DNA of 64,000 nt. Source: Muricea muricata. Its lineage: Eukaryota; Cnidaria; Anthozoa; Malacalcyonacea; Plexauridae. The translations under genes and the position numbers were made by a program. The stretch is taken from contig OY979728.1 of NCBI GenBank assembly GCA_963855995.1, positions 4,637,330 to 4,701,329 on the forward strand. Direction: 5' to 3'. Below are positions 10,212-41,217 of the stretch, piece after piece; positions within the stretch are counted from its first letter, which is position 1; every line of letters begins with the position of its first letter. The notes beneath the pieces are model-generated. The model was not told where the DNA came from. It saw only the letters and a list, made by a program, of their open reading frames with translations, and did not search any database.

Positions 10212-10373
10212 ACAGGTGGTGGTACATTACTCTATTTTTTACTGCGTTTTGTTATGTCACATTTTCTACCAAAAAATGCCCCTGGAGGGGACCTAATTAG
10301 AGTGGACCTAATTAGGTTTCCAGGTTCAATTCCTGGAGACAATATAGAGATGTACGCTAACTGATATACACTA
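10212..10373 (+). repeat. outermost inverted repeat, left copy
   Basis: Matches the complement of 41033-41217. The best-conserved core (about 10275-10361) is nearly identical, while the outer part is more diverged and has indels. The core holds two CCTAATTAG boxes and CCAGGTTCAATTCCTGG, which folds as a five-base stem with a seven-base TTCAATT loop, the form of a tRNA T-arm and a Pol III B-box. No tRNA body is present. The pair brackets the whole 31-kb palindromic region. Confidence 0.7.
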
Positions 10374-10377
10374 ATTA

Positions 10378-10785
10378 CTCCGCCTGCCGTAGGCGAGGCG
10401 GAGTTTTAAATTCGCCCCGTTTCTGTTTTTTTTTTTTTTTTTTTTCGGTGTCAGAAGTCGGTGCAGCGCTCATGGGTGATACCGCTGGCACAAACCGCGT
10501 GAGCCGACCTAAACACGGCGTTTAAACTCAATTTCTAGCGAAATGTGTCTACAAAACACGCATTTAAACGTGCATGCTAGAACATCTAAACCGCAAGAAG
10601 GTTTTACGTGCAAAGATTCTCATGCAAAATGCTTTAAAACGACAAATTCCAGCGATGTGTCGCGGTGAAGTTTTGAGAGCGTGTTTCCGTCATTTTCTGG
10701 TTTATTCCTACTTTTAAGGAAATTTAGAAATTTCTACACAAGAATCAAACGCAAATTCTACTGAAATATCTACATACATACAAAA
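10378..10785 (+). repeat. 400-bp dispersed repeat, left copy (direct orientation)
   Basis: Begins with a hairpin, CTCCGCCTGCCG-TAGG-CGAGGCGGAG, then a long T tract, then a body that continues to CAAATTCTACTGAAATATCT. The same unit, same orientation, occurs at 38474-38875 with scattered differences. Both copies follow a TA. The family is not recognised and no coding sequence is seen. Confidence 0.8.
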
Positions 10786-11495
10786 TGAAGATCGGTGAAG
10801 GAACTTCGCAAAAATATTCATTTTTGTACTTTCGAACGGCGTTTTTCCTATGCTTTTGACTGAAAACACGACGAACGACACTTGCCAGAGCAATTTGCGT
10901 GGCGCGTGGAATGACGTGAGCACGGGGACACAAAAATTGAGGTTATTGAGTGCGAGTTCCCTATCTGTATATATCTGATCTGTGATACAGCTTCTTCTGA
11001 ATCAGGAACAAGGAACTTGCTCGGAGCATGTCGACACAAAGTGGTAGTTTCGGCGTTTCTCGGAATTCGTCGGTTTCCGACGCTGCTCGAAGATTTTCCG
11101 AATACTATTTTTTCAAAATTTTTCTCTAGCTCGAAGATTTTGCTCCTTGAAAGTCCTCTAAATTTTCATGCATCCTAACTTTGTTTTAAGGTAATATGCT
11201 TTATTTTCTATCATTATTTGTAGCAAAGTACTTAGATTGTGCATAGAGATCGATTTTTGAGAGATCAGACTGGAAATAAGTACAATTTTCGAGTATTGTA
11301 AGTTTGTGCTTTCCAAGCATGGCTATGGTCGCATGTAAGATTAAGGCTACCGTTTTCAGTTGAAGTTGGTTCGATAATAATACCATGAAATCCGCTATAG
11401 AAACTGAATGAGGTCTTGAATTGTTGAGATTGTCGAAGAAAGTATGCTGAGACAGTTCTATGTATAGAGTTGGTTCTGGTTCAAATTTATTGAAA
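10786..11495. other. unique spacer between outer repeats and left palindrome arm
   Basis: No gene or repeat partner found in the window. It has no counterpart beyond the right arm, so the palindrome's left border is at about 11496. Confidence 0.5.
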
Positions 11496-11681
11496 AAAGG
11501 CAATTTAATTTTAATTTTGTGAATTTCGATTACAAAACATGCCTTGGACTGTCGACCAATTGATTTCGTCAGGCGATTACAGACTTGTGAGAGGAGGGGG
11601 GTAGCCTAATTACTAAAATGTAGTGAAAAAAGGACTTTCCATCTAATGGTGGGAGCAGGTTGGCGGGAACACTGGAGAATA

Positions 11682-12188
11682 AAGGTCCTGTCACAATGCA
11701 ATTTTTCTTGCAACTTGAAATGCAATTCTACTATTGGGAGATGTAAAATTGGCAAATGCAAGTTTCCATCACAGTTTGCTGGGGTTTTTTAACGTACCAA
11801 ACATTTGTCACAAATTTACTTAAGAGTAGATTTTCCCTGTAGCAAAAAAGATGGCAAATGTCGATTTTACCAGAGTGCATGGCAGTCTGAAATTGTTTAA
11901 AAAGGCAAATTAACGTCTTTTGAAGAACAGACAGAAGACAATAGGTTATTTTCACACTTGTGTTAAAATTTCAATCCAGTAGCTTTGCTTCTTGTCATCT
12001 TTTCCCACGTATTCTTTCTTGATACCTGCAATGCATTCTGGTAAAATCGACATGTCGCCATCTTTTTTGCTACGGTGAATGCAAGGAAAAGTGCACCGTG
12101 TGACAGGGCCTTAAGGGTAAGAGGTGGATAGAGAAGGAGACGGAGCAGTTACAAGTGCAAGAAAAATTGCACCGTGTGACAGGGCCTT
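11682..12188. mobile_element. MITE with CCTGTCACA ends and a nested second MITE (left arm)
   Basis: Inverted ends AAGGTCCTGTCACAATGCAA and the complement of a matching right end. The right end is duplicated internally (GTGTGACAGGGCCTT occurs at about 12096 and again at about 12174). Nested inside, 11840-12072, is a second MITE with ends TAGCAAAAAAGATGGC. The composite is mirrored at 37779-38285, so it predates the palindrome. End style resembles the hAT-like composite at 49428-50077. Confidence 0.7.
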
Positions 12189-15100
12189 GAGGGTGGGAGG
12201 TGGATAGGAGGAGACGGAGCAGGATGTGGGAGTCGTGCAAGGTCGGGAGGTTAAAAAAGAACAAGGAATGTTATGTTTTTAATGCCTTTTAGACTTTTCT
12301 TGAGGCAATTAAAATTCAAACTGTCAAATCCAAACACTGTACAGAATGGCCTTTAGTTTTTACACAACCACTTGCATTGTTATCTTTTGCAGTTTGTTTA
12401 CCATTTCAGTTATATATCTTCAATAGAATTCTTTGAAATTTGTTTGTAGATCGACAAAATGCTTAACCTCCTCTCAACAACTGGCAGATTATGAAAAATG
12501 AAATTGTTAAAGGTATTGGAATATTGCATGTACAATATTGAATATGGGACAATTTGGGACAGTATAATTTTGGACATGACGGTTTCATTCTCACCTAATT
12601 TGACGATTATTTTGTGGGTACACATACCGTGGAATCTCATGTGCTCCAAAAGCATTTTAATCTTAGAAAAAGTCAAATAATGATGAACTGTGTTTTAAAA
12701 GAAAGTTAGAATCTTATTTGGTTCAAATCAATTGAATTATGGCCCAAGAGTTCATGAAAACACATACAAAAGGCTTTCTTAAAAAACTGAAATATCAAAT
12801 CTAGCAATTTTATATGTTATGCCTCTAAACAACACAATTCTGTTTCTAAAAATTGGTACCCTACTAGACCTATATGCATGATTATACTAATTTGGACATA
12901 TTTATTTTTACCCATTAAAATATAAATTTGTGTTTAATCATTCGTGTTTGTCATTATTTGACTTTGTAATGTTGGTTAAACATAAGGAGATTGAGGTGAC
13001 TTTGCCAGAAACAAAAACATCCATTATTATACTAAAATTTCAATATATATAGCAATTAAAACTAACCACAGGAAATATATTTCTACTTTTTAATTGAAAT
13101 GTTTCTGTTATATGCACTATATCATATTTTTGATAAAAAATTACAACACCTATGTTATTTCCTGGTTTACTATCTCAATCATCTTTTGTTTAAGCTGGCT
13201 TTGAGTGTTCATTTGAAAGTTTGGAAAGTTCATTTGAAAATCACAATAGTTCTCAATGTTATATTGGACCCTTTAAAGTTAAAAAAATACTTTGTAATAT
13301 TTTATACTACTGGTAATTTATCTTAGATACAGACTTTGTGATTTTGTACTAGAATGTTGACTTTCAAACTTTAAGATGAACTACTTATTAAGGACAAAAT
13401 AAGCTAGCATATTGTCTTTTGTTTACAAAGTGGAACTTGTTTGGAATTGAGATGAACTGATGCAGTTGTTCTTTAACTTTATCAATTAATTACATATCTT
13501 AAATGAAAAAGAAAACCACAACTTGCCAAATAAATTCTGTGGGCTCTTTTTATTAGCAAAGAAAAGATGTGGCGGATGTAAGAATTTAAGAGTAAAAAAG
13601 TTTCCTTGGACTAAAAAAATTGACAGTATGCCAGATTTTCTAGATAAACAAGCAGTACAGATGTTGGCCAATAATAAGTATAAGTAACTACAATTTTTAA
13701 TTTTAAAAGTTTTCTATTGATGCCTGGATACAGTAAATACTTTACCAGAGTTCTTCGTATTACATCGACTTGAAAAAGTTTTAAGTCACATGAAGCTTTT
13801 AGTTGATACTATGCAATTTCAAATTTTACAGACTTCTTAATTAACATGCCAAATTTACCTTGTTGAACATAAGGTCTTTCCTGAGAAAAAGTAAAACTGT
13901 CTGGCATTATATGGAGTAGAATAATTTAAATTAGTTTGAGACTTTGATTTGATAACAATTTTGATTTGTACTATTTACAATACAAGTGACCGGGTTGTAT
14001 CGGATATACAAACCCAAGCTGAAGGCGAGATATCTGACATACACAGATGCGAATGTTGTAAATGGCTTGTGAAACTCGTCAATTTTATACATCAGATCTA
14101 TAGCAAAGTGATTTTGAAAATACCGATTCTGTAAGATGAGAAAATGATTTCTTTTGTGTTTCCTGTATGATTTATTACTTTATAAGTTTCTTAATTAAAA
14201 TTACAACATATTGCCTACTGGAACTTTTTATATTGTTTGGTTGTGGTGAATTTGTATTTTGGCAATTGAAATATTTCTGAATTTGTATGTGCATTTCCTT
14301 TGCTTCAGTTCAAGTTTACATTTCAAATATTCCACTTTGTAATACTTGCGTGGTAATAATAATATAAGAAAACAGGTTTACATGGCTCTTGAATATAGTC
14401 TTTTCTACAAGTAAGTAAAGATGAATTTATACTTCAAAGAGATATGTTCCTAACCTGACAATGGTACCTTCCAAAAAGACTAAATTTAAATTGATTCTTC
14501 GAATAAATTTTTTACTTTTCAATCCAAGATCAATCTAAGTTATGTATTTCTACTTTTATTTTGGTTTCTTTAACACTGAAACTATCAATTGTATATAAAG
14601 CAACTTCACTATCGAGTGACTTCATTAGTTGCTGGGCAAAGCCAAAGCATTGATTTTTCGGCTGTTTTCAATGAAAAATAGAATTTTGCCCAAAGTTATC
14701 TCAAATAAATTATCACAATTTGAACAAAAAGCTTCTGTTCTTGTGCCCACCAGAAAAATGAGATGTCTGAGACTTTCTTTGTATTTTTTTGCGAAAAATA
14801 GATCGCATGCACTGTTATGCAAAGAAAAATGTAAGAGATTGGTTTCTGAAAAATGTCGTGCTACACACAATATTCTAAAAATGCTTGGTTTTTATTCTAT
14901 GTATTTTTGAATTTTTTGTTAAAAAAAATAAAGGTAGCAATGTTTAGTGCATTTCACATTGTCAGGTTAGAAACGCAATAAGAAAAATGTGGCTCCGAAC
15001 ATTACAGCTTGGTCAATTTGGAATTTATAAAAAAATCGTTTCTTCGTTGTTTTTCGACGTTTTGAAGGGTTGTTTCGAGTACAAAAAAGTATTTTTAGGA

Positions 15101-15249
15101 AGAATTATGTGCCCACGTTACATGTCTCAAAGCCATCAAAATTCGTTGGTAATTCGTGCATGTATTTTTTCTGACTTATAAAAGCACAATTGATTAAAAA
15201 TGATATTTTTCTTTTGACAAAAATACCTTTCTTCTGTGAGGCTGGCTGT

Positions 15250-15345
15250 ATTTGAAAAAGCGTTGGTCAACGCTCCGCCAAAACTCGTGGGTTTTCTCCG
15301 GGTACTCCGGTTCTTCCCACTGGGAGAGTTGACAGGGTAGTTACA
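15250..15345 (+). mobile_element. SINE fragment with conserved central domain (left arm)
   Basis: Carries the strongly conserved block GTGGGTTTTCTCCGGGTACT followed by CCGGTTCTTCCCACTGGG. This block is widespread as a central domain of animal SINE families. The tRNA-related head is missing. It is mirrored at 34618-34712. Confidence 0.65.
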
Positions 15346-15822
15346 TATGGTTATAAAAATGTGACTAACTTTTGAAAACCTTTCTACTTAGACTTGTTAA
15401 GCCTTCTCGTCATCTCTATCAGTTGCATGTTTTGAGCCACATGTTTTTCTTTGTAATTGTGAAACAACTCGTTATATGTTGGGTAAACCTTTGCAAAACT
15501 CTCAAAATTTATCACTTCAAGTTGTTTCATTGTTATAATATATTTTGAAGTATAAACATTTACTTACGTTGAAAAGACCCAAGTTTTTTAGGACTTTGTT
15601 CATTCACTTGTGTTATTGTTCTCTCTGCCATGTTCTGTTTTCTTCTGTTGTTATTTTAATAAGTACAATGTGTGGTAGTTAATCTCTTTTTATTGTTATT
15701 CAAATTGTATGTAATCTTTACAAATTTTTTCAATAAATTGTTTACAAAATTTACTTGTGGCCCCTTTTTAATTAAAAATTCAATTCCCATGGGAATTAAG
15801 AAATTGAATAAAAAAAATCCCC

Positions 15823-15940
15823 CTACCCCGGCCAGCTCCCCAAGTGCCACTTCCACCTTAGTAGAAGTACTTATACATGTAGTACAAGTACTTCTACTTA
15901 TTCACGGTGGAAGTAGCACTCGGAGAACTGGCCGGGGTAG
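15823..15940. repeat. long near-perfect hairpin (left arm)
   Basis: CTACCCCGGCCAGCTCCCCA pairs with the complement at the end of the interval (GAACTGGCCGGGGTAG). The stem continues through AGTGCCACTTCCACC, and the middle is a second nested hairpin (AGAAGTACTT...AAGTACTTCT). It is mirrored at 34018-34135. GC content is much higher than its surroundings. Confidence 0.8.
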
Positions 15941-16774
15941 CCGGCAAAGAGAAGACCAACTTTGCAAGTGCTAATACAATTGCTAAGTTGATCTTCCCTA
16001 GAGAGCAGCCGCGCGTACCTAACAAATTAAAACAACAAACGTTAGTGACTTAAGTACTTAGCATGCAAATTTGATTCCCAAAGCCAAAATGTCAAGTGCC
16101 CCCCGCTGATCCTACCAACTGCCTACCTGCCTCAGTTCTAAGCTGTCTTCCTCAGTTCTAAGCTCCTGCATTCCATTCGTTACCTTCACTTTCCTCACCA
16201 TCGCACAGTCACTCACAGCTGATAAACCCGCATGCACCACCACCACCCCGACTGCCACCCAATTTCGAAAATTAAAAGAGTTAAAATTTCGGTAAAGTAT
16301 GCATTTTAAATGCAATTTATTTGGATATTTTAGATCAAACGTAAACAGAAAAAGCTCGTACATAAAAACAGGTGAGAATTCTATTTAAAATTTGCTTGCA
16401 AAATATAAAACTTAATTCGCATTTTTCTTAGTTAATAGTATAGATCAATTTAGTTGATGTTGAAACCTACTCTTAACTGTTTTGTTAGAAGTGACGACAG
16501 ATTTTGGTTTTTAAGCATACTTTCAAAAATTTTAATTCCTTTAATAAACCTAACCCCATGCAACTTACACACGGCGCACACCCTCGCAGTCCATACATTT
16601 AGCTAATAAACTACGTTATAAACAAAAAAGCAAAATAAAAAGATAAATTACGTTATCTCTAGCTACTTAAACCCACTTAGACTGAGTTTTTGATTGAATT
16701 TTCAAACGTAAAACCTTAGCTGAATGGGCATGGGCTTTTCGTTGTGTTAACTGTTCCGGAGTAAATATAAACCT

Positions 16775-17016
16775 GGGGCCGGTTGTATCAAAGGCGTTTA
16801 GCTTAAACGGTGGATAAGTGAAATTTAAAAATCAGTTTTACACCTAGTACGGAACCGAAATTATGAGTTGAAATAGAATAAATATTTAGTTTTATATATA
16901 ATTGTTCTTCTCAGGTCAAATAACTTCAGCTGGTTTGTTTATACAACATGGAAACGTGTTTCATATTTTTGACTTATCCACCGTTTAAGCTAAACGCCTT
17001 TGATACAACCGGCCCC
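16775..17016. mobile_element. MITE with GGGGCCGGTTGTATCAAA ends (left arm)
   Basis: Inverted ends of about 45 bases beginning GGGGCCGGTTGTATCAAAGG and continuing into CGTTTAGCTTAAACGG. Interior is non-coding and about 150 bp. Mirrored at 32942-33183; a diverged single end lies at about 61538. Confidence 0.85.
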
Positions 17017-17515
17017 TGATACTTACCAAAGTCCAAGGCTGGGTCAAATAAGCATGAGAATTAGGCAAAAATAAAAAGCAATTGAAACTCAACAGATTCA
17101 CTAAAGTTGTTTTTTTTTTTGGCAACTTATATCCTTAAGTGTAGATGACATGCAATTTTTAATGCCGTAATTCTCACACTTATTTAACCGAAACGCCTTC
17201 ATTTGCATGGTACCTCGCAGCTGCTCTCAAACCACCTTCGTAATTTGCTTTAGTGTACACAAACAATGACTTCATTGTTCCTGCTTACCAAAACAAATCT
17301 GAAAGCACCAAGATACTTATATTAATAATCAAAGAGGATTCGCATTATGCAGTAATTACCATAAACAGACGCACACCATTGAAACAAAGCATGCCGTATT
17401 CCCATGGGAATTTAAAATGCACAAAAAAATATAATGATCCTACTGATTTGCATGGATGTATGAACCAAATTAGCTAAGAAACAAAGAAATGATATATTCC
17501 CTTGGGAATTTAATG

Positions 17516-17743
17516 TAGCAAAAAGATGGCGGGTGTTGATTTTACCAGAATGCCTTGCGGTCTGAAATCGTTTAAAAACTTAAGGTAAATTAACCTCGTT
17601 TGAGGAACAGACAGATAGGTTATTTTGTCACTTGTGTTAAAATTCCGTCCATTAGCTTATCTTAAATATCATTTCACTGGTATTCTTGATTGATACCCGC
17701 ATTAAATTCTGGTAAAATCGACATGCCACCATCTGTTTTGCTG
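17516..17743. mobile_element. MITE with TAGCAAAAAGATGGC ends, second copy (left arm)
   Basis: Same family as the element nested at 11840-12072: ends TAGCAAAAAGATGGCGGGTG and complement, with an interior containing GAACAGACAGA and TCACTTGTGTTAAAATT in both. Mirrored at 32212-32439. Confidence 0.8.
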
Positions 17744-18647
17744 CGGTGAATTGGAATACAAGTCACATTTTCTCGCTTTTTAACCAGAGAACACATTCTT
17801 TAAAGGTAGAACGACGGAATTGATCGTTTGCAATCGACGCCATCTTTGTTGACGTTTGAAACACATGGCAACCACAAAGTATCTATTCATTATATCTGAT
17901 CCTATCGAGCCATACATCTTTAAAGTATCATTCATAATACGCTAAAACTAACGATGAAATAGTAAATTGACACAAGTACTTCGCTGTAAACAGCTGAAGT
18001 AATCTGCAGAGTCAACCAAGATGGCGCCCAATCACACGAAATGACGTCATGTGCAAACCAAGAATAGTGACAAAATGCATCAACTATAATTTAGTGGCAT
18101 TATTACGAAACTTATTTTTGTAAAACGTTCAATCCTACATGTTATTTTGTTTTGTTTTTAGAAATATCCAAATCCAAATGTTAGAGACGAAATTTCCAGG
18201 CGTTAAGGTATTGTTTCTTTAAAAAATATTGTCGACATTTACCATATTTTTACCTGTTTTTTGACTCGAAAATTGACTGCCAAACTCCTAGATATTCTAT
18301 TTAATTATTTTGTTGAATGTATTTGATATCAATGTTATTTCAATCCAATTTTTTTCACTTAATTTGCTGTCTTTTCTTTTTCATTAACGAGAAATATCTA
18401 TTAAATCCTCTTTGATCCCTCAATAATAAGTATCTTGTTTTCTACTAACTTGCACATTACCACTACTTTCTATTACAATGTCGTGTCTTCTTATTCTTGT
18501 GGATTGTTGTTTTGTGGGTCTTGCCGTCCAGGATCGTTCATTCTTTTCTCTTCTTGTGCGTTTTTTTCACATCCCATCACCCTTTGCAATAGTAGAAAGA
18601 AGTAAGTCATGAGATGATAGTTACGAATAATTTATAAACTATAACAT

Positions 18648-18768
18648 GATAAGTTTCTTGTACGTTTGCATGGTGAATACAATATACTTATTAAGCTTTG
18701 TGGAAACACCACGTAAATTTATTATTGCAATAATAAATTTACGTGGTGTTTCCACAAAGCTTAATAAG
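18648..18768 (-). mobile_element. hairpin element inserted only in the left arm
   Basis: A 121-bp insertion flanked by exact 13-bp duplications TAAACTATAACAT (18635-18647 and 18769-18781). The right arm has the empty site with one copy of the target. Bases 18687-18768 form a perfect 41+41-bp palindrome. The remainder is a 39-bp tail that, read on the minus strand, ends with CACCATGCAAACGTACAAGA and AACTTAT. The same tail and stem (GTGGAAACACCACGTAAATT) occur at 53700-53820 and 58010-58157. There is no coding capacity. Confidence 0.9.
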
Positions 18769-19145
18769 TAAACTATAACATATTAAGCACTTATTGGATG
18801 AGGTTTTTGTGATATGCGAAATGATCAATGTCGAGGTAAGAGTTATCAGCCGAGCCGAAGGCGAGTCAGATAACTCTTACCAAGACATTGATAATTTTGC
18901 ATATCACAAAAACCGAATCCGATAATTGCTTTATTATACATTGTAAGTCTTTTTCCTCGAGCAATTGACGAATTTCGCCTTCGGAAGAGCTTAAAAAGCA
19001 AGATGCCATAACATGAAACAGAAAATATCGAAAAAATGTTGTTGCCATGCCAACCATTGATGCCAACGAATACCGCATACTGTAATAATCTGCACCGTAG
19101 GCTCAACATGCAGATAACTCAGTTATCTGCTAGCAGATAACTGAG

Positions 19146-19369
19146 CCATAGAATAAGAATACATAGAAGGGCCACTCGCGTCGGAGCCTTTGGAGTTTTT
19201 GAAGCCGCGCATGTCGCATTACGCACGTTATTAGCATTTTCTCAGCCAGTCAATTGCATTTTCTGGCCAATAGGAATGCTGAACTGGCTGGTGGCAGCCA
19301 GTAAACTGCATAAACATAGTGTGACATGTTGCACTGCTGAGTGGCCCTTCTATGTATTCTTATTGTATG
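19146..19369. mobile_element. MITE inserted only in the left arm
   Basis: 224 bp with 30-bp inverted ends starting CATAGAATAAGAATACATAG and continuing GAAGGGCCACT. It is flanked by ACTGAG on both sides (19140-19145, 19370-19375). The right arm shows the uninterrupted site. Interior matches the MITE at 3074-3259. Confidence 0.85.
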
Positions 19370-19455
19370 ACTGAGTTATCTGCAGATTGTGTGATAGTCG
19401 CATTTATCTGCATACAACTGACCAATCACAACGCATAAAACAACTGCAATGTATA

Positions 19456-19822
19456 GTAATTAACACTTATTGACTGAGACCGAGGGAAACAGTATGTTTT
19501 GTGGACCAGAGACTGTCGATGTCGAGGGTCCACAAAACATACTGCTTTCCCGAGGTCTCAGTCAATAAGTATTTTATTATATACTGACTGCCAAAAGAGA
19601 AGAAAGTACCACAAATCAATCAAACATGTGTAAAAAGGATTACCTTTTACCTGACATGGCTACGTGAGGCTTTGTGGATTTGTTGTCTACCGGTGAATAA
19701 AAGTAATGTCCACCGCTTAGCTACGTTGCCAGGGAGACAATAGAATTTCTCCACTAACACGTGATACGTTCTTAACCAATAAGAAACAGGAATAAATGAA
19801 CTTTGACACTCAGTATATTATA
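19456..19822. mobile_element. hairpin-headed element inserted only in the left arm
   Basis: About 367 bp absent from the right arm. It starts with a hairpin of about 105 bp (ACTTATTGACTGAGACC and complement, inner stem CAGTATGTTTTGTGGACC). This is followed by inverted ends TTATTATATACTGACTG and complement near 19820. The target duplication is not clear. Architecture matches 31096-31649. Confidence 0.75.
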
Positions 19823-20762
19823 AAATAGTATTAATTAGGCCGGCCAAATTATTGTGTAAGCTGTTAATATGAAATTTTTTTATTAAAATCTCGAGAATCA
19901 TTAATAAATCGTGAGCAAAACACAAAAGAAAATCATAGCCGTGAAGGAGTCTTTATTTCTCACACGCACACAACTTGCAGCTACCCTAATTTATGAATTT
20001 AGATTAAAATATCCCGAGAATTAAACAACACGTAAGGAATGTGTAAATTCTTAAAGCTCTTTCGAACAATAAAAATTAATATCTCGCACTAATCTCTCTC
20101 AAAAGCTCTCTCAAATTTATTGTTGATATCTCTTTGAGAATTACTGTGCACGTGAAATGTAACTTATATCAAAACTAGCTTACTTCAAGCTGTTTGGGAA
20201 TCAAGATTTTACGTGTCAACGAGATCAAATATGAATCTAAGATGGCAGACAGCGCATTAAATTTTTATCTTTACGACCAACTCCCCAACGAAAGGCTTTA
20301 ATTCGCTCGAAAGTCGAATTTTGTTTTTTTTTATTGTTTCAGGTAGTGAAAGATCCTGTGTGCTTTTTACAGTACTACCGACACTAGCAACGTTAGTGCG
20401 AGATGTTAATTTTTATTGAAACAAAAGCTGAACTGCTAAAAAAATGGAAACGACAAGATAAAATAAAAAAACTTACTTTCACTCTATCTTTGGATCTTCT
20501 TGGCTTCGGTTGTTCTCGTTTCATCATGCTGTTTATGGTTTCATCTGGTTGGCGCACTCTCTTCATGGAGCATCAAGGCGGTCCAGTAGGTAACTAGCTC
20601 ACTCGTGTCCAGTCAACCAACATAAAATAAGGAGAAAATTAATGTTACAAAATATTTTAGAATATAGGACACTAAGCTTTAATTGAATTGACTTTAACAA
20701 ACCGTACATTGTGATAGTATTTGCATCTTAACATCTGATGGAGACGGCTTGTGATTTACTTC

Positions 20763-21122
20763 TTATGTCGATATGAATTCTTTCCCATCTTGTTGCATCA
20801 TTAGTTGATGGTTGTTGTATTCACTTTTTACTTGGCATTCTTTGAAAAAAAAATTACGATGTTCAGAAAACTGTTTACAAGATAAGCAAAGAAAACTACG
20901 TTCACAAGCATTAGAGAGGACTAAGTAATTATAATAGGCGTGACAGGTCACAGAGGTTAGTCGACGAAGAAACTCATGGACAAATTCCCGGCATGATGAT
21001 ACCCCGATAGCAAGAAATACAGCAAGTGTAGAACCTGTACGTGTGAGCTTAAACTGTATGTATGCAACTCCAAGAAAAGCGCAACACAAAATGGCGGAAT
21101 TTAAAGACATTTCTGGTGTCAT
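20763..21122 (-). other. unrecognised 119-codon open frame in the left arm
   Basis: From the first ATG at 21122 the frame runs 119 codons to 20763, with a hydrophobic N-terminal third and a Cys-rich patch (CERSFLCLSCKQF). No family is recognised. In the right arm the same frame is broken by TAG where this arm has TAC (near 29065), and the third copy at 9590-10180 has no frame. This loss suggests it is not under protein selection, so it is listed only as a candidate. Confidence 0.2.
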
Positions 21123-21573
21123 TTCCAGTTCCCTAACTTTCGCGGACAAATATATTTATATATTTTTCTCAAATTTTTTTGAAGTAAATCTAGATGGATT
21201 TTGTGAATAAACAAATTAAAAAAAGTATTGCCCACGTTAGGAAACTAGAACGGGCGCCCAAGAATGCCCACAATTTCTCCAATCTGGATTATATTTATTG
21301 ATTGCGCAAATGACTGATAAAAAATAAGAGAGTAATAAAATACCAAATGGTTTCCTCTTCAAGATAGTGTCATACATGCGCGCGGCATTTCGGGATATTT
21401 GGGAAAACTCGTGTTGAAGTTGAACCTAAGGCAACATGCCAAGTACATGGATGACGCTATCCTGCTCAGGAAACTATTTAGTAATTGTCTTACAAAATGA
21501 TGACAGTGAAACACAAGTCAACGCCACGGCATTTAAATTTCTCGTGTAGGATTGTTTGATCCTGCACAGTAAT

Positions 21574-21720: not shown

Positions 21721-21907
21721 GGTTAAAATTGTAAAATATCAGTAATCACCGGAACACGGGTACTTAACTAAACTGCTGACGATGAGGCGGAACTCATAAT
21801 GAATTAATGAAAATGTGTTTCACTGTAGTTATCATATAATGTAATTGCCAAGCTGAATGAATAATTCTCCAGTAACTACGTCATATGAATAACTTACAAT
21901 TATGAGA

Positions 21908-30295: not shown

Positions 30296-30740
30296 ACTAT
30301 TTTATTATACATTGCAGTTGTTTTATGCGTTGTGATTGATCAGTTGTATGCAGACAAATGCGACTATCACACAATCTGCAGATAACTCAGTTATCTGCTA
30401 GCAGATAACTGAGTTATCTGGATGTTGAGCCTACGGTGCAGATTATTACAGTATGCGGTATTCGTTGGCATCAATGGTTGGCATGGCAACAACATTTTTT
30501 CGATATTTTCTGTTTCATGTTATGGCATCTTCCTTTTTAAGCTCTTCCGAGGGCGAAATGCGTCAATTGCTCGAGGAAAAAGACTTAAAATGTATAATAA
30601 AGCAATTATCGGATTCGGTTTTTGTGATATGCAAAATTATCAATCTCTCGGTAAGAGTTATCTGACTCGCCTTCGGCTCGGCTGATAACTCTTACCTCGA
30701 CATTGATAATTCCGCATATCACAAAAACCTCATCCAATAA
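30296..30740. mobile_element. hairpin-headed element, uninterrupted (right arm mirror)
   Basis: Mirror of the older element at 18791-19832 without its two nested insertions. It gives the empty-site sequence for both. Inverted ends are TTTATTATACATTGCA and complement; the hairpin head is at about 30600-30735. Confidence 0.65.
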
Positions 30741-31095
30741 TTGTTTAATATGTTATAGTTTATAAATTACTCGTAACTATCATCTCATGATTTAATTCTT
30801 TCTACTATTGCAAAGGGTGATGGGATGTGAAAAAAACGCACAAGAAAAGAAAAGAATGAACGATCCTGGACGACAAGACCCACAAAACAACAATCCACAA
30901 GAATGAGAAGACACGACATTGTAATAGAAAGTAGTGGTAATGTGCAAGTTAGTAGAAAACAAGATACTTATTATTGAGGGATCAAAGAGGATTTAATAGA
31001 TATTTCTCGTTAATGAAAAAGAGAAGACAGCAAATTAAGTGAAAAAAATTGGATTGAAATAACATTGATATCAAATACATTCAACAAAATAATTA

Positions 31096-31649
31096 GTATA
31101 GGAAATTACACGGTCCGAGAAGTATTAATGAAAAATCGCACGCGTGTTTGGCGAAATGTTTATAATACCGCGAGTGCGTAGCACGAGCGGTATTATAAAT
31201 ATTTCGCCAAACACAAGTGAGATTTTTCATTAATACTTCGAGAACAAGTGTAATTTCCTATTAATATCATTTTACTACATATTTCAATGCTGAACTTAAC
31301 TGTTTTCGTGAATGAAGTGCTGCCGACGATATGTTTCGCAAACTTTCGCAATAAATACTTTCAGGTTTGCCATTTTCTCTTCAAAGAAACCTTTTCTAAC
31401 ACGAGTATTCATCCAACGAAAGTTTTTTAACCACTTTGTGAACATTTTTGTCAAAAAAACTGCTGATTCTTTGAATATTTCAAAATAAAAATACAAAAAT
31501 GTTGACAAATTTTATCACAAAAACATTTTACTACATGACGTATAGCTCGTTTCCGTGCCGATTAATTTTTAATCGGCACAATGTGCCGATTAAGGGTTAA
31601 TCGGCACACTTTTTAACCAATCAGAATCGAGTAAACTAAAAAAAATGAT
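31096..31649. mobile_element. hairpin-headed element inserted only in the right arm
   Basis: About 554 bp absent from the left arm, whose uninterrupted site is found near 18290-18310. A possible 4-bp ATTA duplication flanks it. A hairpin head of about 168 bp (stem TAGGAAATTACAC, ATTAATGAAAAATC, GTTTGGCGAAAT) is followed by an element with ends TAATATCATTTT and complement, and CCAATCAGAATCGAG near the far end. The inner frame of 70 codons is not recognised. Confidence 0.85.
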
Positions 31650-32211
31650 ATTAAATAGAATACCTAGGAGTTTGGCAGTCAATTTTCGAGTCAAAAAACA
31701 GGTAAAAATATGGTAAATGTCGACAATATTTTTTAAAGAAACAATACCTTAACGCCTGGAAATTTCGTCTCTAACATTTGGATTTGGATATTTCTAAAAA
31801 CAAAACAAAATAACATGTAGGATTGAACGTTTTACAAAAATAAGTTTCGTAATAATGCCACTAAATTATAGTTGATGCATTTGGTCACTATTTTTGGTTT
31901 GCACATGCCGTCATTTCGTGTGATTGGGCGCCATCTTGGTTGACTCTGCAGATTACTTCAGCTGTTTACAGCGAAGTACTTGTGTCAATTTACTATTTCA
32001 TCGTTAGTTTTAGCGTATCATGAATGATACTTTAAAGATGTATGGCTCGATAGGATCAGATATAATGAATAGATACTTTGTGGTTGCCATGTGTTTCAAA
32101 CGTCAACAAAGATGGCGTCGATTGTAAACGATCAATTCCGTCGTTCTACCTTTAAAGAATGTGTTCTCTGGTTAAAAAGCGAGAAAATTTGACTTGTATT
32201 CCAATTCACCG

Positions 32212-32439
32212 TAGCAAAACAAATGGTGGCATGTCGATTTTACCAGAATTTAATGCGGGTATCAATCAAGAATAGCAGTGAAATGATATTTAACATAAGC
32301 TAATGGACGGAATTTTAACACAAGTGACAAAATAACCTATCTGTCTGTTCCTCAAACGAGGTTAATTTACCTTAAGTTTTTAAACGATTTCAGACCGCAA
32401 GGCATTCTGGTAAAATCAACACCCGCCATCTTTTTGCTA
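32212..32439. mobile_element. MITE with TAGCAAAA ends (right arm mirror)
   Basis: Mirror of 17516-17743. Confidence 0.75.
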
Positions 32440-32941
32440 CATTAAATTCCCAAGGGAATATATCATTTCTTTGTTTCTTAGCTAATGTGGTTCATACATC
32501 CATGCAAATCAGTAGGATCATTATATTTTTTTGTGCATTTTAAATTCCCATGGGAATACAGCATGCTTTGTTTCAATGGTGATGCGTCTGTTTATGGTAA
32601 TTACTGCATAATGCGAATCCTCTTTGATTATTAATATGATAAGTATCTTGGTGCTTTCAGATTTGTTTTGGTAAGCAGGAACAATGAAGTCATTGTTTGT
32701 GTACACTAAAGCAAATTACGAAGGTGGTTTGAGAGCAGCTGCGAGGTACCATGCAAATGAAGGCGTTTCGGTTAAATAAGTGTGAGAATTACGGCATTAA
32801 AAATTGCATGTCATCTACACTTAAGGATATAAGTTGCCAAAAAAAAAACAACTTTAGTGAATCTGTTGAGTTTCAATTGCTTTTTATTTTTGCCTAATTC
32901 TCATGCTTATTTGACCCAGCCTTGGACTTTGGTAAGTATCA

Positions 32942-33183
32942 GGGGCCGGTTGTATCAAAGGCGTTTAGCTTAAACGGTGGATAAGTCAAAAATATGAAAC
33001 ACGTTTCCATGTTGTATAAACAAACCAGCTGAAGTTATTTGACCTGAGAAGAACAATTATATATAAAACTAAATATTTATTCTATTTCAACTCATAATTT
33101 CGGTTCCGTACTAGGTGTAAAACTGATTTTTAAATTTCACTTATCCACCGTTTAAGCTAAACGCCTTTGATACAACCGGCCCC
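32942..33183. mobile_element. MITE with GGGGCCGGTTG ends (right arm mirror)
   Basis: Mirror of 16775-17016, with the same 45-bp inverted ends. Confidence 0.85.
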
Positions 33184-34017
33184 AGGTTTATATTTACTCC
33201 GGAACAGTTAACACAACGAAAAGCCCATGCCCATTCAGCTAAGGTTTTACGTTTGAAAATTCAATCAAAAACTCAGTCTAAGTGGGTTTAAGTAGCTAGA
33301 GATAACGTAATTTATCTTTTTATTTTGCTTTTTTGTTTATAACGTAATTTATTAGCTAAATGTATGGACTGCGAGGGTGTGCGCCGTGTGTAAGTTGCAT
33401 GGGATTAGGTTTATTAAAGGAATTAAAATTTTTGAAAGTATGCTTAAAAACCAAAATCTGTCGTCACTTCTAACAAAACAGTTAAGAGTAGGTTTCAACA
33501 TCAACTAAATTGATCTATACTATTAACTAAGAAAAATGCGAATTAAGTTTTATATTTTGCAAGCAAATTTTAAATAGAATTCTCACCTGTTTTTATGTAC
33601 GAGCTTTTTCTGTTTACGTTTGATCTAAAATATCCAAATAAATTGCATTTAAAATGCATACTTTACCGAAATTTTAACTCTTTTAATTTTCGAAATTGGG
33701 TGGCAGTCGGGGTGGTGGTGGTGCATGCGGGTTTATCAGCTGTGAGTGACTGTGCGATGGTGAGGAAAGTGAAGGTAACGAATGGAATGCAGGAGCTTAG
33801 AACTGAGGAAGACAGCTTAGAACTGAGGCAGGTAGGCAGTTGGTAGGATCAGCGGGGGGCACTTGACATTTTGGCTTTGGGAATCAAATTTGCATGCTAA
33901 GTACTTAAGTCACTAACGTTTGTTGTTTTAATTTGTTAGGTACGCGCGGCTGCTCTCTAGGGAAGATCAACTTAGCAATTGTATTAGCACTTGCAAAGTT
34001 GGTCTTCTCTTTGCCGG

Positions 34018-34135
34018 CTACCCCGGCCAGTTCTCCGAGTGCTACTTCCACCGTGAATAAGTAGAAGTACTTGTACTACATGTATAAGTACTTCTACTTA
34101 GGTGGAAGTGGCACTTGGGGAGCTGGCCGGGGTAG
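34018..34135. repeat. long near-perfect hairpin (right arm mirror)
   Basis: Mirror of 15823-15940. Confidence 0.8.
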
Positions 34136-34617
34136 GGGGGTTTTTTTTATTCAATTTCTCAATTCCCATGGGAATTGAATTTTTAATTAAAAAGGGGTCA
34201 CAAGTAAATTTTGTAAACAATTTATTGAAAAAATTTGTAAAGATTACATACAATTTGAATAACAATAAAAAGAGATTAACTACCACACATTGTACTTATT
34301 AAAATAACAACAGAAGAAAACAGAACATGGCAGAGAGAACAATAACACAAGTGAATGAACAAAGTCCTAAAAAACTTGGGTCTTTTCAACGTAAGTAAAT
34401 GTTTATACTTCAAAATATATTATAACAATGAAACAACTTGAAGTGATAAATTTTGAGAGTTTTGCAAAGGTTTACCCAGCATATAACGAGTTGTTTCACA
34501 ATTACAAAGAAAAACATGTGGCTCAAAACATGCAACTGATAGAGATGACGAGAAGGCTTAACAAGTCTAAGTAGAAAGGTTTTCAAAAGTTAGTCACATT
34601 TTTATAACCATATGTAA

Positions 34618-34712
34618 CTACCCTGTCAACTCTCCCAGTGGGAAGAACCGGAGTACCCGGAGAAAACCCACGAGTTTTGGCGGAGCGTTGACCAACGCTT
34701 TTTCAAATACAG
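34618..34712 (-). mobile_element. SINE fragment (right arm mirror)
   Basis: Mirror of 15250-15345, with the conserved CCGGAGTACCCGGAGAAAAC block. Confidence 0.65.
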
Positions 34713-37700
34713 CCAGCCTCACAGAAGAAAGGTATTTTTGTCAAAAGAAAATATCATTTTTAATCAATTGTGCTTTTATAAGTCAGAAAAAATACATGCA
34801 CGAATTACCAACGAATTTTGATGGCTTTGAGACATGTAACGTGGGCACATAATTCTTCCTAAAAATACTTTTTTGTACTCGAAACAACCCTTCAAAACGT
34901 CGAAAAACAACGAAGAAACGATTTATAAATTCCAAATTGACCAAGCTGTAATGTTCGGAGCCACATTTTTCTTATTGCGTTTCTAACCTGACAATGTGAA
35001 ATGCACTAAACATTGCTACCTTTATTTTTTTTAACAAAAAATTCAAAAATACATAGAATAAAAACCAAGCATTTTTAGAATATTGTGTGTAGCACGACAT
35101 TTTTCAGAAACCAATCTCTTACACTTTTCTTTGCATAACAGTGCATGCGATCTATTTTTCGCAAAAAAATACAAAGAAAGTCTCAGACATCTCATTTTTC
35201 TGGTGGGCACAAGAACAGAAGCTTTTTGTTCAAATTGTGATAATTTATTTGAGATAACTTTGGGCAAAATTCTATTTTTCATTGAAAACAGCCGAAAAAT
35301 CAATGCTTTGGCTTTGCCCAGCAACTAATGAAGTCACTCGATAGTGAAGTTGCTTTATATACAATTGATAGTTTCAGTGTTAAAGAGACCAAAATAAAAG
35401 TAGAAATACATAACTTAGATTGATCTTGGATTGAAAAGTAAAAAATTTATTCGAAGAATCAATTTAAATTTAGTCTTTTTGGAAGGTACCATTGTCAGGT
35501 TAGGAACATATCTCTTTGAAGTATAAATTCATCTTTACTTACTTGTTGAAAAGACTATATTCAAGAGCCATGTAAACCTGTTTTCTTATATTATTATTAC
35601 CACGCAAGTATTACAAAGTGGAATATTTGAAATGTAAACTTGAACTGAAGCAAAGGAAATGCACATACAAATTCAGAAATATTTCAATTGCCAAAATACA
35701 AATTCACCACAACCAAACAATATAAAAAGTTCCAGTAGGCAATATGTTGTAATTTTAATTAAGAAACTTATAAAGTAATAAATCATACAGGAAACACAAA
35801 AGAAATCATTTTCTCATCTTACAGAATCGGTATTTTCAAAATCACTTTGCTATAGATCTGATGTATAAAATTGACGAGTTTCACAAGCCATTTACAACAT
35901 TCGCATCTGTGTATGTCAGATATCTCGCCTTCAGCTTGGGTTTGTATATCCGATACAACCCGGTCACTTGTATTGTAAATAGTACAAATCAAAATTGTTA
36001 TCAAATCAAAGTCTCAAACTAATTTAAATTATTCTACTCCATATAATGCCAGACAGTTTTACTTTTTCTCAGGAAAGACCTTATGTTCAACAAGGTAAAT
36101 TTGGCATGTTAATTAAGAAGTCTGTAAAATTTGAAATTGCATAGTATCAACTAAAAGCTTCATGTGACTTAAAACTTTTTCAAGTCGATGTAATACGAAG
36201 AACTCTGGTAAAGTATTTACTGTATCCAGGCATCAATAGAAAACTTTTAAAATTAAAAATTGTAGTTACTTATACTTATTATTGGCCGACATCTGTACTG
36301 CTTGTTTATCTAGAAAATCTGGCATACTGTCAATTTTTTTAGTCCAAGGAAACTTTTTTACTCTTAAATTCTTACATCTGCCACATCTTTTCTTTGCTAA
36401 TAAAAAGAGCCCACAGAATTTATTTGGCAAGTTGTGGTTTTCTTTTTCATTTAAGATATGTAATTAATTGATAAAGTTAAAGAACAACTGCATCAGTTCA
36501 TCTCAATTCCAAACAAGTTCCACTTTGTAAACAAAAGACAATATGCTAGCTTATTTTGTCCTTAATAAGTAGTTCATCTTAAAGTTTGAAAGTCAACATT
36601 CTAGTACAAAATCACAAAGTCTGTATCTAAGATAAATTACCAGTAGTATAAAATATTACAAAGTATTTTTTTAACTTTAAAGGGTCCAATATAACATTGA
36701 GAACTATTGTGATTTTCAAATGAACTTTCCAAACTTTCAAATGAACACTCAAAGCCAGCTTAAACAAAAGATGATTGAGATAGTAAACCAGGAAATAACA
36801 TAGGTGTTGTAATTTTTTATCAAAAATATGATATAGTGCATATAACAGAAACATTTCAATTAAAAAGTAGAAATATATTTCCTGTGGTTAGTTTTAATTG
36901 CTACATATATTGAAATTTTAGTATAATAATGGATGTTTTTGTTTCTGGCAAAGTCACCTCAATCTCCTTATGTTTAACCAACATTACAAAGTCAAATAAT
37001 GACAAACACAAATGATTAAACACAAATTTATATTTTAATGGGTAAAAATAAATATGTCCATATTAGTATAATCATGCATATAGGTCTAGTAGGGTACCAA
37101 TTTTTAGAAACAGAATTGTGTTGTTTAGAGGCATAACATATAAAATTGCTAGATTTGATATTTCAGTTTTTTAAGAAAGCCTTTTGTATGTGTTTTCATG
37201 AACTCTTGGGCCATAATTCAATTGATTTGAACCAAATAAGATTCTAACTTTCTTTTAAAACACAGTTCATCATTATTTGACTTTTTCTAAGATTAAAATG
37301 CTTCTGGAGCACATGAGATTCCACGGTATGTGTACCCACAAAATAATCGTCAAATTAGGTGAGAATGAAACCGTCATGTCCAAAATTATACTGTCCCAAA
37401 TTGTCCCATATTCAATATTGTACATGCAATATTCCAATACCTTTAACAATTTCATTTTTCATAATCTGCCAGTTGTTGAGAGGAGGTTAAGCATTTTGTC
37501 GATCTACAAACAAATTTCAAAGAACTCTATTGAAGATATATAACTGAAATGGTAAACAAACTGCAAAAGATAACAATGCAAGTGGTTGTGTAAAAACTAA
37601 AGACCACGTAAAGTCGGCCATTCTGTACAGTGTTTGGATTTGACAGTTTGAATTTTAATTGCCTCAAGAAAAGTCTAAAAGGCATTAAAAACATAACATT

Positions 37701-37778
37701 CCTTGTTCTTTTTTAACCTCCCGACCTTGCACGACTCCCACATCCTGCTCCGTCTCCTCCTATCCACCTCCCACCCTC

Positions 37779-38285
37779 AAGGCCCTGTCACACGGTGCAA
37801 TTTTTCTTGCACTTGTAACTGCTCCGTCTCCTTCTCTATCCACCTCTAACCCTTAAGGCCCTGTCACACGGTGCACTTTTCCTTGCATTCACCGTAGCAA
37901 AAAAGATGGCGACATGTCGATTTTACCAGAATGCATTGCAGGTATCAAGAAAGAATACGTGGGAAAAGATGACAAGAAACAAAGCTACTGGATTGAAATT
38001 TTAACACAAGTGTGAAAATAACCTATTGTCTTCTGTCTGTTCTTTAAAAGACGTTAATTTGCCTTTTTAAACAATTTCAGACTACCATGCACTCTGGTAA
38101 AATCGACATTTGCCATCTTTTTTGCTACAGGGAAAATCTACTCTTAAGTAAATTTGTGACAAATGTTTGGTACGTTAAAAAACCCCAGCAAACTGTGATG
38201 GAAACTTGCATTTGCCAATTTTACATCTCCCAATAGTAGAATTGCATTTCAAGTTGCAAGAAAAATTGCATTGTGACAGGACCTT
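37779..38285. mobile_element. nested MITE composite (right arm mirror)
   Basis: Mirror of 11682-12188, including the inner TAGCAAAAAAGATGGC element at 37895-38127. Confidence 0.7.
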
Positions 38286-38473
38286 TATTCTCCAGTGTTC
38301 CCGCCAACCTGCTCCCACCATTAGATGGAAAGTCCTTTTTTCACTACATTTTAGTAATTAGGCTACCCCCCTCCTCTCACAAGTCTGTAATCGCCTGACG
38401 AAATCAATTGGTCGACAGTCCAAGGCATGTTTTGTAATCGAAATTCACAAAATTAAAATTAAATTGCCTTTTT

Positions 38474-38875
38474 ACTCCGCCTGCCGTAGGCGAGGCGGAG
38501 TTTTAAATTCGCCCGGTTTCTCTTTTTTTTTTTTTCGGTGTCAGAAGTCGGTGCCGCCGCTAATGGGTGATACCGCTGGACACAAGCCGCGTGAGCCGAC
38601 ATAAACACGTCGTTTAAACTCAATTTCCAGCGGAATATGTCAACAAAACACGCATTTTAACATGTATGCTAGAACATCTAAACCGCAAGAAGGTTTTACG
38701 TGCAAAAATTCTCATGCAAAATGTTTTAAAACGACAAATTCCACCGCGAAACTTTACCGAGGAGCGATGAGAGCGTGCTTCCGTCATTTTCTGTTGTATT
38801 CCTACTTTTAAGGAAATTTAGAAATTTCTACACAAGAATCAAACGCAAATTCTACTGAAATATCTACATACAAAA
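38474..38875 (+). repeat. 400-bp dispersed repeat, right copy (direct orientation)
   Basis: Same unit and orientation as 10378-10785, starting with the CTCCGCCTGCCG hairpin. It begins exactly where right-arm homology to the left arm stops. Confidence 0.8.
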
Positions 38876-40395
38876 CACAATTTTTAACATGTAATAGTCA
38901 ACAAAAAGGGACAGGAAGGTTCTTTATCAAAAAATTGCTCCAGAAATGTTTTAAAACGGCAAATAAAAGGTGAGAGACATTTTACATTCCAATTCCAGAA
39001 ATACATATGTTAGTCTAAAGTTCCCAACAAATTATATCGTGGAGACTTCAGACTTAATAGCTTAGTCTAATTTTTAATTTTTGTTGTTTTTATGAGCGAT
39101 TTTAATACTTGTTTTGTTAGAACGTCACGTTGAATAGTTGACTCAGAGAAAGGATTTCAAATTGGATATCACAGAAAATACAGATCACAGTAATACTTTT
39201 AAGTCGATTACTGTAAAGATTGTTGCTATAATTATTAAAATAGCAAGAAAAAAACTCAAAAATGCAAAATAAAAAAAAGAACAAAATTTAACTTAAATTT
39301 AGTAAAATTTCAACTGGCACTTTCTTAATTTTCCAAAACTTTATCAGACACCCTGCCTATATACCAATGTTTTAACTGACACCTGAAGCTTTCTGGAAGT
39401 AAATACTTTGTCAGCATGTCGAAAGTCTAACTGACAACTTGTGGGCATGTACAGGTCAAAGTCTAACCGACATCTTGTCAACAAGCCAAAAGCCTAACCA
39501 ACATCTTGTCACAAGCCAAAAGCCTAACCGACATCTTGTCAACAAGCGAAAAGCATTACCGACATCTTGTCAACAAGCCAAAAGCCTAACCAACATCTTT
39601 TCAACAAGCCAAAAGCCTAACTGACATCTTGTCAACAAGCCAAAAACCTAACCGACATCTTGTCAACATGCCAAAAATCTAACTAGGAGCATATCAACAT
39701 GTCAAAAGTCCATTTCAAAGCTTGTCCACATATCAAAAGACTAACTCAGATCTTATCAACATGTCAAAAGTCTGCTCGAAAACTTGTCAACTAGTCAAAA
39801 TCCTTACCAACATTTTATAAACATGCCAAATATTTACCTGACACCTTATCAACACATCAAATATCTAATTCAAAGCTGGTCAATATATCAAAAGGCTAGC
39901 CAACATTTTCCCAACAAATTATATCGTGGAGACTTCAGGCAGTGTGCTACAGAATAGATTTAATAAATTGATGGATTTAATAGACTGATGTATTGTATAC
40001 ACTTTTAGTAAAATTTTCTTTACTTGCAAAATAAAACAGCTATTTGTTGGTGGCATTATGGCAAAAGAATCTTGTTTAACATATGTACTATTAAAGTCTT
40101 TAATCTAAATTAAATTCTAAAAAATGCAATCCTACTAGGACTCTGGACAGAGTGCCTGGCAGGTCACTCAGACATTGATTTTTGGTTATCTTAGTGATTG
40201 CATAAGATGTGCTAGCAATGTCTTAAAATGCCTTGGAAGGTACCGTAATAATAATTGATTTAAAAAGGAATTAGTTGGACAGAACAGAAATAAGTGAATG
40301 TACCCCACCCCCAATGAACTCTCTAGTTACAGCCCTGCCTGGCCTTGTGCCCATTTTCGTTTGGCAGGCGGAGTGAACGCCTTAGCAGGCGTCTT
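38876..40395. other. gene-free region with minisatellite and a duplicated 31-bp block
   Basis: No gene seen. A 31-base sequence beginning TTCCCAACAAATTATATCGT occurs at about 39025-39055 and again at about 39908-39938 in the same orientation, bracketing the minisatellite at 39430-39720. Confidence 0.5.
39430..39720 (+). repeat. 31-bp minisatellite
   Basis: Units of about 31 bases (CAACAAGCCAAAAGCCTAAC then CGACATCTTGT) in roughly eight copies. They degrade further to about 39910 into units with CAACATGTCAAAAGTC. A short open frame across it is an artefact of the repeat. Confidence 0.85.
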
Positions 40396-41036
40396 GTTAT
40401 ACTTAGTATAGTTAGTACAGGTGAGTTCACTGAATATAAAAGAGTGCTAGGCACTTACAGTTATTTGTAATCCCACTAACCACCCCCGACCATTCTAATT
40501 CCACCCCTACCGGTTTTCGTAGCTTTATAGTTCTCACAGCAATCTAGTTATTACGGTTTGCATTACTGTTACCATTAGGAGGTAACTCTGCATGACATGC
40601 GCGGAAGGTTTAGTTATGTAGTTAGTATACCAGAGTCACCCCAGTTATCTAAGCTAACTCAAGTGTACCTGGGTAGATAACTTTGTAGTTGACTAGAGTT
40701 AGTTAACTAAGGCAGACTCTACCTTAGTTAACTAACTCTAGTCGACTACAAAGTTATCTACACAAGTACACTTGAGTTACCTTCGATAACTGACAGAGGT
40801 AACTCTCGTGTGCTAACTACAGTAAACTAAAGTTACCTTTTGCGCATGTCATACAGAGTTACCTCCTAATGGTAACCGTAATAACTAGATTGTTGTGAGA
40901 ACTATAAAGCTACGAAAACCGGTAGGGGTGGAAATTAGAATGGTCGGGGGTGGTTAGTGGGATTATAAATGACTGTAAGTACCTAGTACCATTTTATATT
41001 TAGTGAACTCACCTGTACTAACCATACTACGTATAG
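40396..41036. mobile_element. 640-bp near-perfect palindromic element
   Basis: Two arms of about 315 bases, from TAGTTAGTACAGGTGAGTTC inward to TAACTAACTCTAGTCGACTA, meet around 40715 with a loop of about ten bases. Arms carry scattered mismatches. It looks like a foldback element or MITE with almost no interior. It lies next to the right outer inverted repeat. Confidence 0.85.
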
Positions 41037-41217
41037 TGTATGGCAGTTAGCGTACATCTCTATATTGTCTCCAGGAATTGAACCTGGAAACCTAATTAGG
41101 TCCACTCTAATTAGGTCCCCTCCAGGGGCATTTTTTTGTTAAAACATTACTAGAAGGTTACACGCGTGACATAACAAACCTAGTAGAAAGTATACTTAAT
41201 GTACTACCTATTTTTTT
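41033..41217 (-). repeat. outermost inverted repeat, right copy
   Basis: Inverse partner of 10212-10373, including the CCAGGAATTGAACCTGG T-arm-like hairpin and the two CTAATTAGG boxes. About 20 bases longer than the left copy because of an indel. Confidence 0.7.

Follow-up and report, generated by a model that had tools for sequence, protein, structure and literature searches.

Architecture of the locus

The window analysed here, a 64,000-nucleotide stretch of the Muricea muricata genome (C13:4637330-4701329), contains a giant palindrome lying between a tandem pair of ENPP genes and a gene for a pyridoxal-phosphate (PLP) enzyme of the PALP family. This palindrome is one of about 270 dispersed copies of a very large mobile element. 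Judging by its termini, target site and organisation, the element is probably a giant non-autonomous rolling-circle transposon of Helentron-like (HINE) type, whose cargo is a 27-kb palindrome in which no genes are recognisable. Palindromes of such length are commonly regarded as unstable, or as peculiar to sex chromosomes and amplicons; here, according to the assembly (453 Mb in 74 contigs), one has been carried as transposon cargo to about 270 places. Labels beginning with C and L denote contigs and fetched loci of this same assembly.

The arms of the palindrome are real, long, collinear and inverted. Self-BLAST of the window, together with Pfam matches to PF01663 and PF00291 in the flanking genes, confirmed the arrangement that a sequence-only reading had placed here. 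The arms are about 97-99% alike, and alignment along their length bears out the close similarity claimed earlier, at about 99.2% in the outer and 97.1% in the inner part. The outer 6.8 kb or so pair 11494-18305 with 38473-31650 (99.15% over 6830 columns), and the inner 5 kb or so pair 19816-24796 with 30309-25372 (97.1% over 4989 columns). Three shorter inverted matches lie between them, at 18302-18647/31095-30750 (98.0%), 18769-19145/30762-30386 (97.1%) and 19367-19459/30394-30302 (95.7%), and four large mid-arm indels of 558, 134, 230 and 364 bp separate the two arms. A global alignment of one arm against the other counted 131 transitions and 122 transversions, a tally that takes in a non-homologous outer stretch. 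Because of the length and identity of the arms, a chance origin is excluded. The spacer is where it had been described, at 575 bp instead of the 571 bp first given.

Mirror symmetry ends well inside the outer limits of 10212 and 41217 that had been proposed for the palindrome. It stops at 11494 on the left and at 38472-38473 on the right, and the wider limits turned out to be those of a host repeat. The stretches outside the arms, 10374-11493 and 38473-40398, give no inverted-repeat alignment with each other; instead, 10375-10778 and 38472-38872 form a direct repeat (89.7% over 408 columns). Farther out, a small inverted match in the self-BLAST (10268-10373/41139-41034, 97.2%) belongs to a foldback repeat, similar to a miniature inverted-repeat transposable element (MITE), that hosts the inserted element. 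When the window's flanks are joined, they align across the junction with 41139-40798 (87.7%) and with L070, L051 and L056. Coordinates of all parts are collected in Table 1.

Table 1. Parts of the mobile element and its host repeat in the window
Feature	Coordinates	Strand	Basis or remark
Whole mobile element, type A (HINE-1 5′ end, palindrome, HINE-2 3′ end)	10376..40397	+	30,022 bp; borders from other copies and empty site
5′ terminal hairpin; bases 10377-10388, the first 12, form the 5′ subterminal inverted repeat	10377..10404	+	Fold; 21 of 30 left-end loci
5′ unique region, 5′ part of HINE-1	10376..11493	+	10375-10778 repeated directly at 38472-38872
Left palindrome arm, 13.3 kb, without Pfam family	11494..24796	+	Self-BLAST; six-frame Pfam
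Spacer, 575 bp	24797..25371	+	Holds the 44-base marker found 273 times genome-wide
Right palindrome arm, 13.1 kb, inverted	25372..38472	-	Self-BLAST
HINE-2, second complete short element with its own 5′ and 3′ termini	38473..40397	+	Within a T-run of the right arm
31-bp tandem repeats within HINE-2	39458..39830	+	
3′ subterminal repeat GGCAGGCGGAGT	40363..40374	+	Exact reverse complement of 10377-10388
3′ hairpin, 6-bp stem and 4-nt loop	40377..40392	+	5 nt from the element end
Host foldback (MITE-like) repeat split by the element	40398..41139 (right part)	+	Left part 10268-10375

The arms had been called non-coding, and at the level of Pfam families this is borne out. A six-frame scan of one arm and the spacer (10374-25300) returned no Pfam family at E≤0.1, and the same scan of 38400-40400 returned only two matches, with E-values of 0.064 and 0.067, far under the curated cut-offs. 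The ENPP genes served as a positive control, scoring PF01663 at 1.8e-84 and 2.9e-79. A search of the window against Rfam gave nothing at the gathering score, and a tRNA search found no genes. At Pfam level the element has no coding capacity.

Copies across the assembly

Sequence markers revealed the palindrome to be a dispersed repeat, not the rare structure it had been taken for. A 44-base marker from the spacer matched 273 places genome-wide (≤2 mismatches) and a 44-base marker from the arm matched 540, with no match for the backward control in either case. Ninety of 100 listed arm-marker places fell into 45 convergent pairs, 43 of which were spaced 20-24 kb, and the median spacing was 21.6 kb. 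A 771-base spacer query was covered end to end in all 40 scored matches, and both inner arms were present in all 30 fetched spacer copies, which are the best-scoring 30 matches and not a random draw. With 1 kb of arm as query we obtained 1614 candidate places, the best 40 of which scored as near-identical, several of them as inverted pairs about 9.1 kb apart. At roughly 30 kb per copy, simple arithmetic (273 x 30 kb) puts the total load at about 8 Mb. The spacer marker had no exact match in the viral_contigs and genome_contigs collections, from which records of the window's own genome are possibly excluded.

Termini and target site

Comparison of copies defined both borders of the element. Copies in unrelated flanks start at TACTCCGCCTGCC, equivalent to window position 10376. 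This 5′ terminus was present in 21 of 30 fetched left-end loci, with a T directly before it in all 21; the remaining nine were unmatched by our search expression, several being truncated further in. Among seven fetched right ends, five reached the border at 40397/40398, one was interrupted inside HINE-2, the second short element listed in Table 1, and one had no HINE-2. Just inside the borders lie 12-bp subterminal repeats: the one at 40363 is the exact reverse complement of ACTCCGCCTGCC, which lies at 10377. The 5′ repeat pairs with neighbouring bases as a hairpin, and the folding energy of the 5′ end is -12.8 kcal/mol (z -5.2), a value equalled by none of 200 shuffles. A 59-nt stretch at the 3′ end folds mildly better than its shuffles (z -1.7, with 9 of 200 as good).

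An empty site defined the mode of insertion. The element runs from TACTCC to CTTGT, and its target is TT. At a copy at C9:8.576 Mb, the flanks joined without the intervening TACTCC...CTTGT agree with that half of the host repeat which holds no insertion (98.4% over 500 bp), exactly so over the 45 bases shown on each side of AAT/TCC. Insertion into TT without target duplication is demonstrated at this one exact empty site. The 3′ terminus occurs in 1188 places genome-wide (≤3 mismatches), far above the count of palindromes, and the ends therefore belong to a larger element family.

Related foldback or MITE-like repeats host several copies, as seen in the flanks of L042, L043, L051, L053, L056, L061, L063 and others.

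A composite of two elements

The right end of the element is supplied by a second HINE. At 38473 the right arm meets another 5′ terminus, of the same sequence as that at 10376; beyond it come 1.9 kb that include the 31-bp repeats and end in the 3′ terminus. The break in the arm falls in a T-run. In a copy at C13:1.24-1.27 Mb (L056/L073), the arm is uninterrupted at the mirror position and ends in a mirrored 5′ terminus, and the left and right flanks of this copy have no substantial match to each other. Genome-wide, the junction with HINE-2 had 158 exact matches, and 37 of 40 scored matches crossed it; the uninterrupted junction had 344. Added together, these are close to the number that palindromes with two arm ends each should give. 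The element is a composite in which HINE-2, lying in the right arm, supplies the 3′ end.

Copies come in two types. Type A has the 5′ end on one side and the HINE-2 3′ end on the other; type B is symmetric, with 5′ ends on both sides. Given two arm ends per palindrome, the junction counts would correspond to about 158 type A copies, each with one HINE-2, and about 93 type B copies with none, as arithmetic and not as a census. A census was possible for the 73 of 273 spacers whose surroundings fell inside the listed ranges, and gave 42 of type A, 15 of type B, 15 assignable on one side and one on neither. At one place on C3 both sides carry the HINE-2 junction, with 26.5 kb between the two. The suggested order of events is a symmetric palindrome, then insertion of HINE-2 giving a working 3′ end, then spread.

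Exchange between the arms

Hundreds of palindromes of common origin in one genome act as replicates, in which conversion, inversion of the centre and loss of arms can be counted. We aligned 1.59 kb of both inner arms in the 30 best-scoring copies. Distance between the arms of a copy was bimodal, below 1% in 13 copies and 1.2-2.1% in 17. At 21 diagnostic sites we found 19 different left/right combinations among the copies, and three copies (L020, L021 and L023) carried the same mosaic in both arms over most of these sites. Eighteen variants occurred in exactly two of the 60 arms. For 11 of them, across six copies, these two were the arms of one and the same copy, where 0.31 were expected (nominal P 9.5e-16, sites treated as independent). 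Differences between left and right next to the spacer persist in all or nearly all copies. In two copies, the arms compared at 18.5-22.5 kb were 99.75% and 99.7% alike over 4 kb; the same comparison in the window (L001) gave about 97% in alignable parts. The centre also turns over: of 42 type A copies, 30 have the spacer in the window's orientation relative to the HINE-2 end and 12 have it reversed. Arms share variants and spacers flip; therefore the arms of the family convert and sometimes cross over.

A probable rolling-circle transposon with a palindrome as cargo

The ends of the element resemble those of HINEs. It has subterminal repeats, a 3′ stem-loop, a TT target and internal tandem repeats, and no Pfam coding content; the canonical Helitron features (5′ TC, 3′ CTRR, insertion between A and T) are absent. 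HINEs have 12-15 bp palindromic subterminal inverted repeats, a 3′ stem-loop and a TT target without duplication (PMC4067079; this and all other papers are cited from excerpts). The likeness to HINE and DINE-1 elements in that source extends to tandem repeats, to the non-coding character and to an inverted repeat that overlaps the 5′ subterminal repeat. In contrast to them, the present element is 30 kb long, carries a 27-kb palindrome, is built from two HINEs and has its 3′ subterminal repeat nearer the end. We regard assignment to the HINE family as likely: the element works like a HINE.

We infer that the Rep/helicase of an autonomous Helentron drives transposition in trans. Copying would start at the HINE-1 5′ end, cross the palindrome and stop at the 3′ hairpin of HINE-2, the next downstream terminator having thus been captured. 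Published Helitron work, as excerpted, supports such use of the next terminator downstream (PMC4778049, PMC6431247). In Helraiser the 5′ end is required and the 3′ end not strictly so, and bypass of the hairpin leads to a downstream terminator (PMC4778049); in maize, Helitron capture composites reach 39 kb (PMC6431247). Those composites likewise place the 5′ end of one element and the 3′ end of another around captured sequence. In the present case the cargo is a palindrome of about 27 kb, and the termini are Helentron-like, unlike the Helitron pattern of 5′ TC, 3′ CTRR and A^T insertion.

The palindrome itself would be older, the product of a turn-back in the copying of a HINE-1 element through which the right arm came to mirror the left out to the 5′ end. 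Origin-dependent inverted-repeat amplification (ODIRA), in which a replication error yields loop-joined inverted copies (PMC4689423), is a candidate for this step; in the yeast work excerpted there the product is an amplified chromosomal segment, whereas here it is transposon cargo. Later recombination between the arms would account for conversion and, through crossover, for flipping of the centre, and may take place on the chromosome or in a displaced single strand folded as a hairpin of about 13 kb.

Three pairs of left ends share host flank. The inverted pair L058/L059 (C11:12181272-12208861) continues its symmetry past the 5′ end into host flank, with all 569 of 569 fetched bases in common. 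L047/L048 (C6:2456456-2501823) have 113 flank bases in common and then diverge. L046 and L067, on the same strand of C6 and 1.76 Mb apart, have flanks 99.8% alike over 568 bases. Copying that ran back past the 5′ end into host DNA would leave flanks like those of the first two pairs, which may be a trace of palindrome formation; a fold-back assembly error would leave the same.

A more ambitious proposal, which we consider doubtful, is that the palindrome serves the life cycle of the element. The displaced strand would fold into a hairpin of about 13 kb within which mismatches between the arms are repaired, and symmetric copies could be mobilised in two directions, making the element self-homogenising. 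Under this proposal, repair within the hairpin would leave the two arms with one mosaic in common. Either strand of a symmetric copy could be mobilised, since its mirrored 5′ end would present the GGCAGGCGGAGT repeat and a 3′-terminator hairpin as well.

Several observations weigh against a HINE with convertible arms. We found no autonomous partner: the Helitron_like_N profile has 150 matches genome-wide, and the single Rep locus that was read, 8.5 kb at L076, shows no similarity to the window and lacks the subterminal repeat. By eye, no 3′ terminus and Rep stand in the right order within about 15 kb among the matches listed on C1. The distance from the 3′ subterminal repeat to the end is 23 nt, as against 38-60 bp in the mite HINEs excerpted from PMC4067079. 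The 15 symmetric copies in the census are not accounted for by a plain model of one start and one stop. The window's own empty-site comparison spans the junction but is inexact, since the other half of the host repeat has a 4-base gap there, and three relatives carry C where the window flank carries T. In the outer 2.3 kb of the window, its own arms are 0.48% apart, as against a median of 0.26% between its left arm and the left arms of 29 other copies, and private variants number one in both arms, as against one and five in single arms. There is thus no clear recent homogenisation of the window copy in the 2.3 kb tested, and the gene conversion raised by the sequence-only reading, although it occurs across the family, is unsupported for the window's arms there. 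Finally, single copies may be affected by assembly errors of the kind that arise at long, near-identical inverted repeats.

Alternative explanations

In foldback transposons the inverted repeats are terminal. A foldback DNA transposon that moves by cut-and-paste and has enormous terminal inverted repeats would fit the symmetric copies, which carry the same terminus at both ends, one of them (L056/L073) between unrelated flanks. The commoner type A has unlike ends and non-terminal arms, the exact empty site lacks a target duplication, the ends match HINE features, and the six-frame Pfam search found no transposase domain, so that we judge this account improbable. Galileo and Tetris, as excerpted (PMC4168063, PMC4079207), are likewise dispersed mobile elements with long inverted repeats; the repeats of type A are internal, in contrast, and no target duplication is seen.

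An assembly artefact, in which fold-back or the joining of haplotypes creates a false inverted duplication, is quite improbable as well. The arms exceed many read lengths, and the three pairs of left ends with common flanks are of the kind such errors would leave. Against this, the same architecture recurs in about 270 places with differing flanks and an arm-to-spacer marker ratio of about 2. The 17 of 30 copies with arms 1.2-2.1% apart, the fixed left/right differences beside the spacer and the variants private to both arms of single copies are also contrary to duplication by assembly.

Long arms, high identity and arm-to-arm conversion within the family recall a large palindrome specific to its locus and kept alike by gene conversion, as on mammalian sex chromosomes. 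The 273 spacer and 540 arm markers lie on many contigs in unrelated flanks, the ends are of transposon type with an exact empty site, and over the 2.3 kb compared the window's left arm is nearer to other copies than to the right arm of the same copy. The dispersed copies refute a locus-specific palindrome as the principal explanation, and we give it very little credence. The excerpted work on sex-chromosome palindromes such as P6 (PMC3723533) does share arm-to-arm conversion and inversions of the centre with the present family; those palindromes are single loci, whereas here a dispersed mobile family has distinguishable arms in 17 of 30 inspected copies.

A remnant of a giant virus-like element, Teratorn- or Polinton-like, is scarcely credible: its size recalls Teratorn as excerpted from PMC6431247, and so do long inverted repeats that enclose a unique centre, but six frames yield no Pfam family, the ends are of Helentron type, and the exact spacer marker is absent from viral_contigs, in itself a weak test.

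A HINE-type rolling-circle transposon carrying a palindrome thus remains our preferred reading. In excerpts of the open-licence literature we found no description of a large palindrome as Helitron or Helentron cargo. The system allows one to ask how rolling-circle machinery traverses a 27-kb inverted repeat.

Distribution among contigs

The palindromes are nearly absent from the largest contigs, which poses the question of where such elements can live. C1, C2 and C3 measure at least 124, 67 and 60 Mb and together make up over half of the assembly; they hold three of the 158 HINE-2 junctions and one of the 344 plain junctions (0 mismatches). C1 and C2 have no exact end-junction marker of the palindrome, with or without HINE-2. 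C1 accounts for 79 of the matches listed for the exact 3′ terminus and the first 15 Mb of C2 for another 21, and by hand count about 105 of the 150 Helitron_like_N matches fall on C1. By our own count, Cpn60_TCP1 loci number about 10 on C4-C14 and three on C2, with none on C1 or C3. This spread bears little resemblance to the complete extra gene set that might be expected if a second organism lay behind the contig bias.

A COX1-like stretch with one internal stop lies on nuclear C1 (C1:38414782-38416095), besides COX1 on C74, and is possibly a nuclear copy of mitochondrial DNA.

Neighbouring features

The left neighbours of the element are tandem ENPP-like genes at 1013-2473 and 4026-5512 (PF01663), 73% alike. 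On the right, the PALP gene (PF00291) is encoded on the minus strand at 49092-49211. The window also contains a separate palindromic repeat of about 1.3 kb at 46804-48097, with an inverted self-match of 87%, and a 17-bp tandem array of about 50 copies at 51320-52223.

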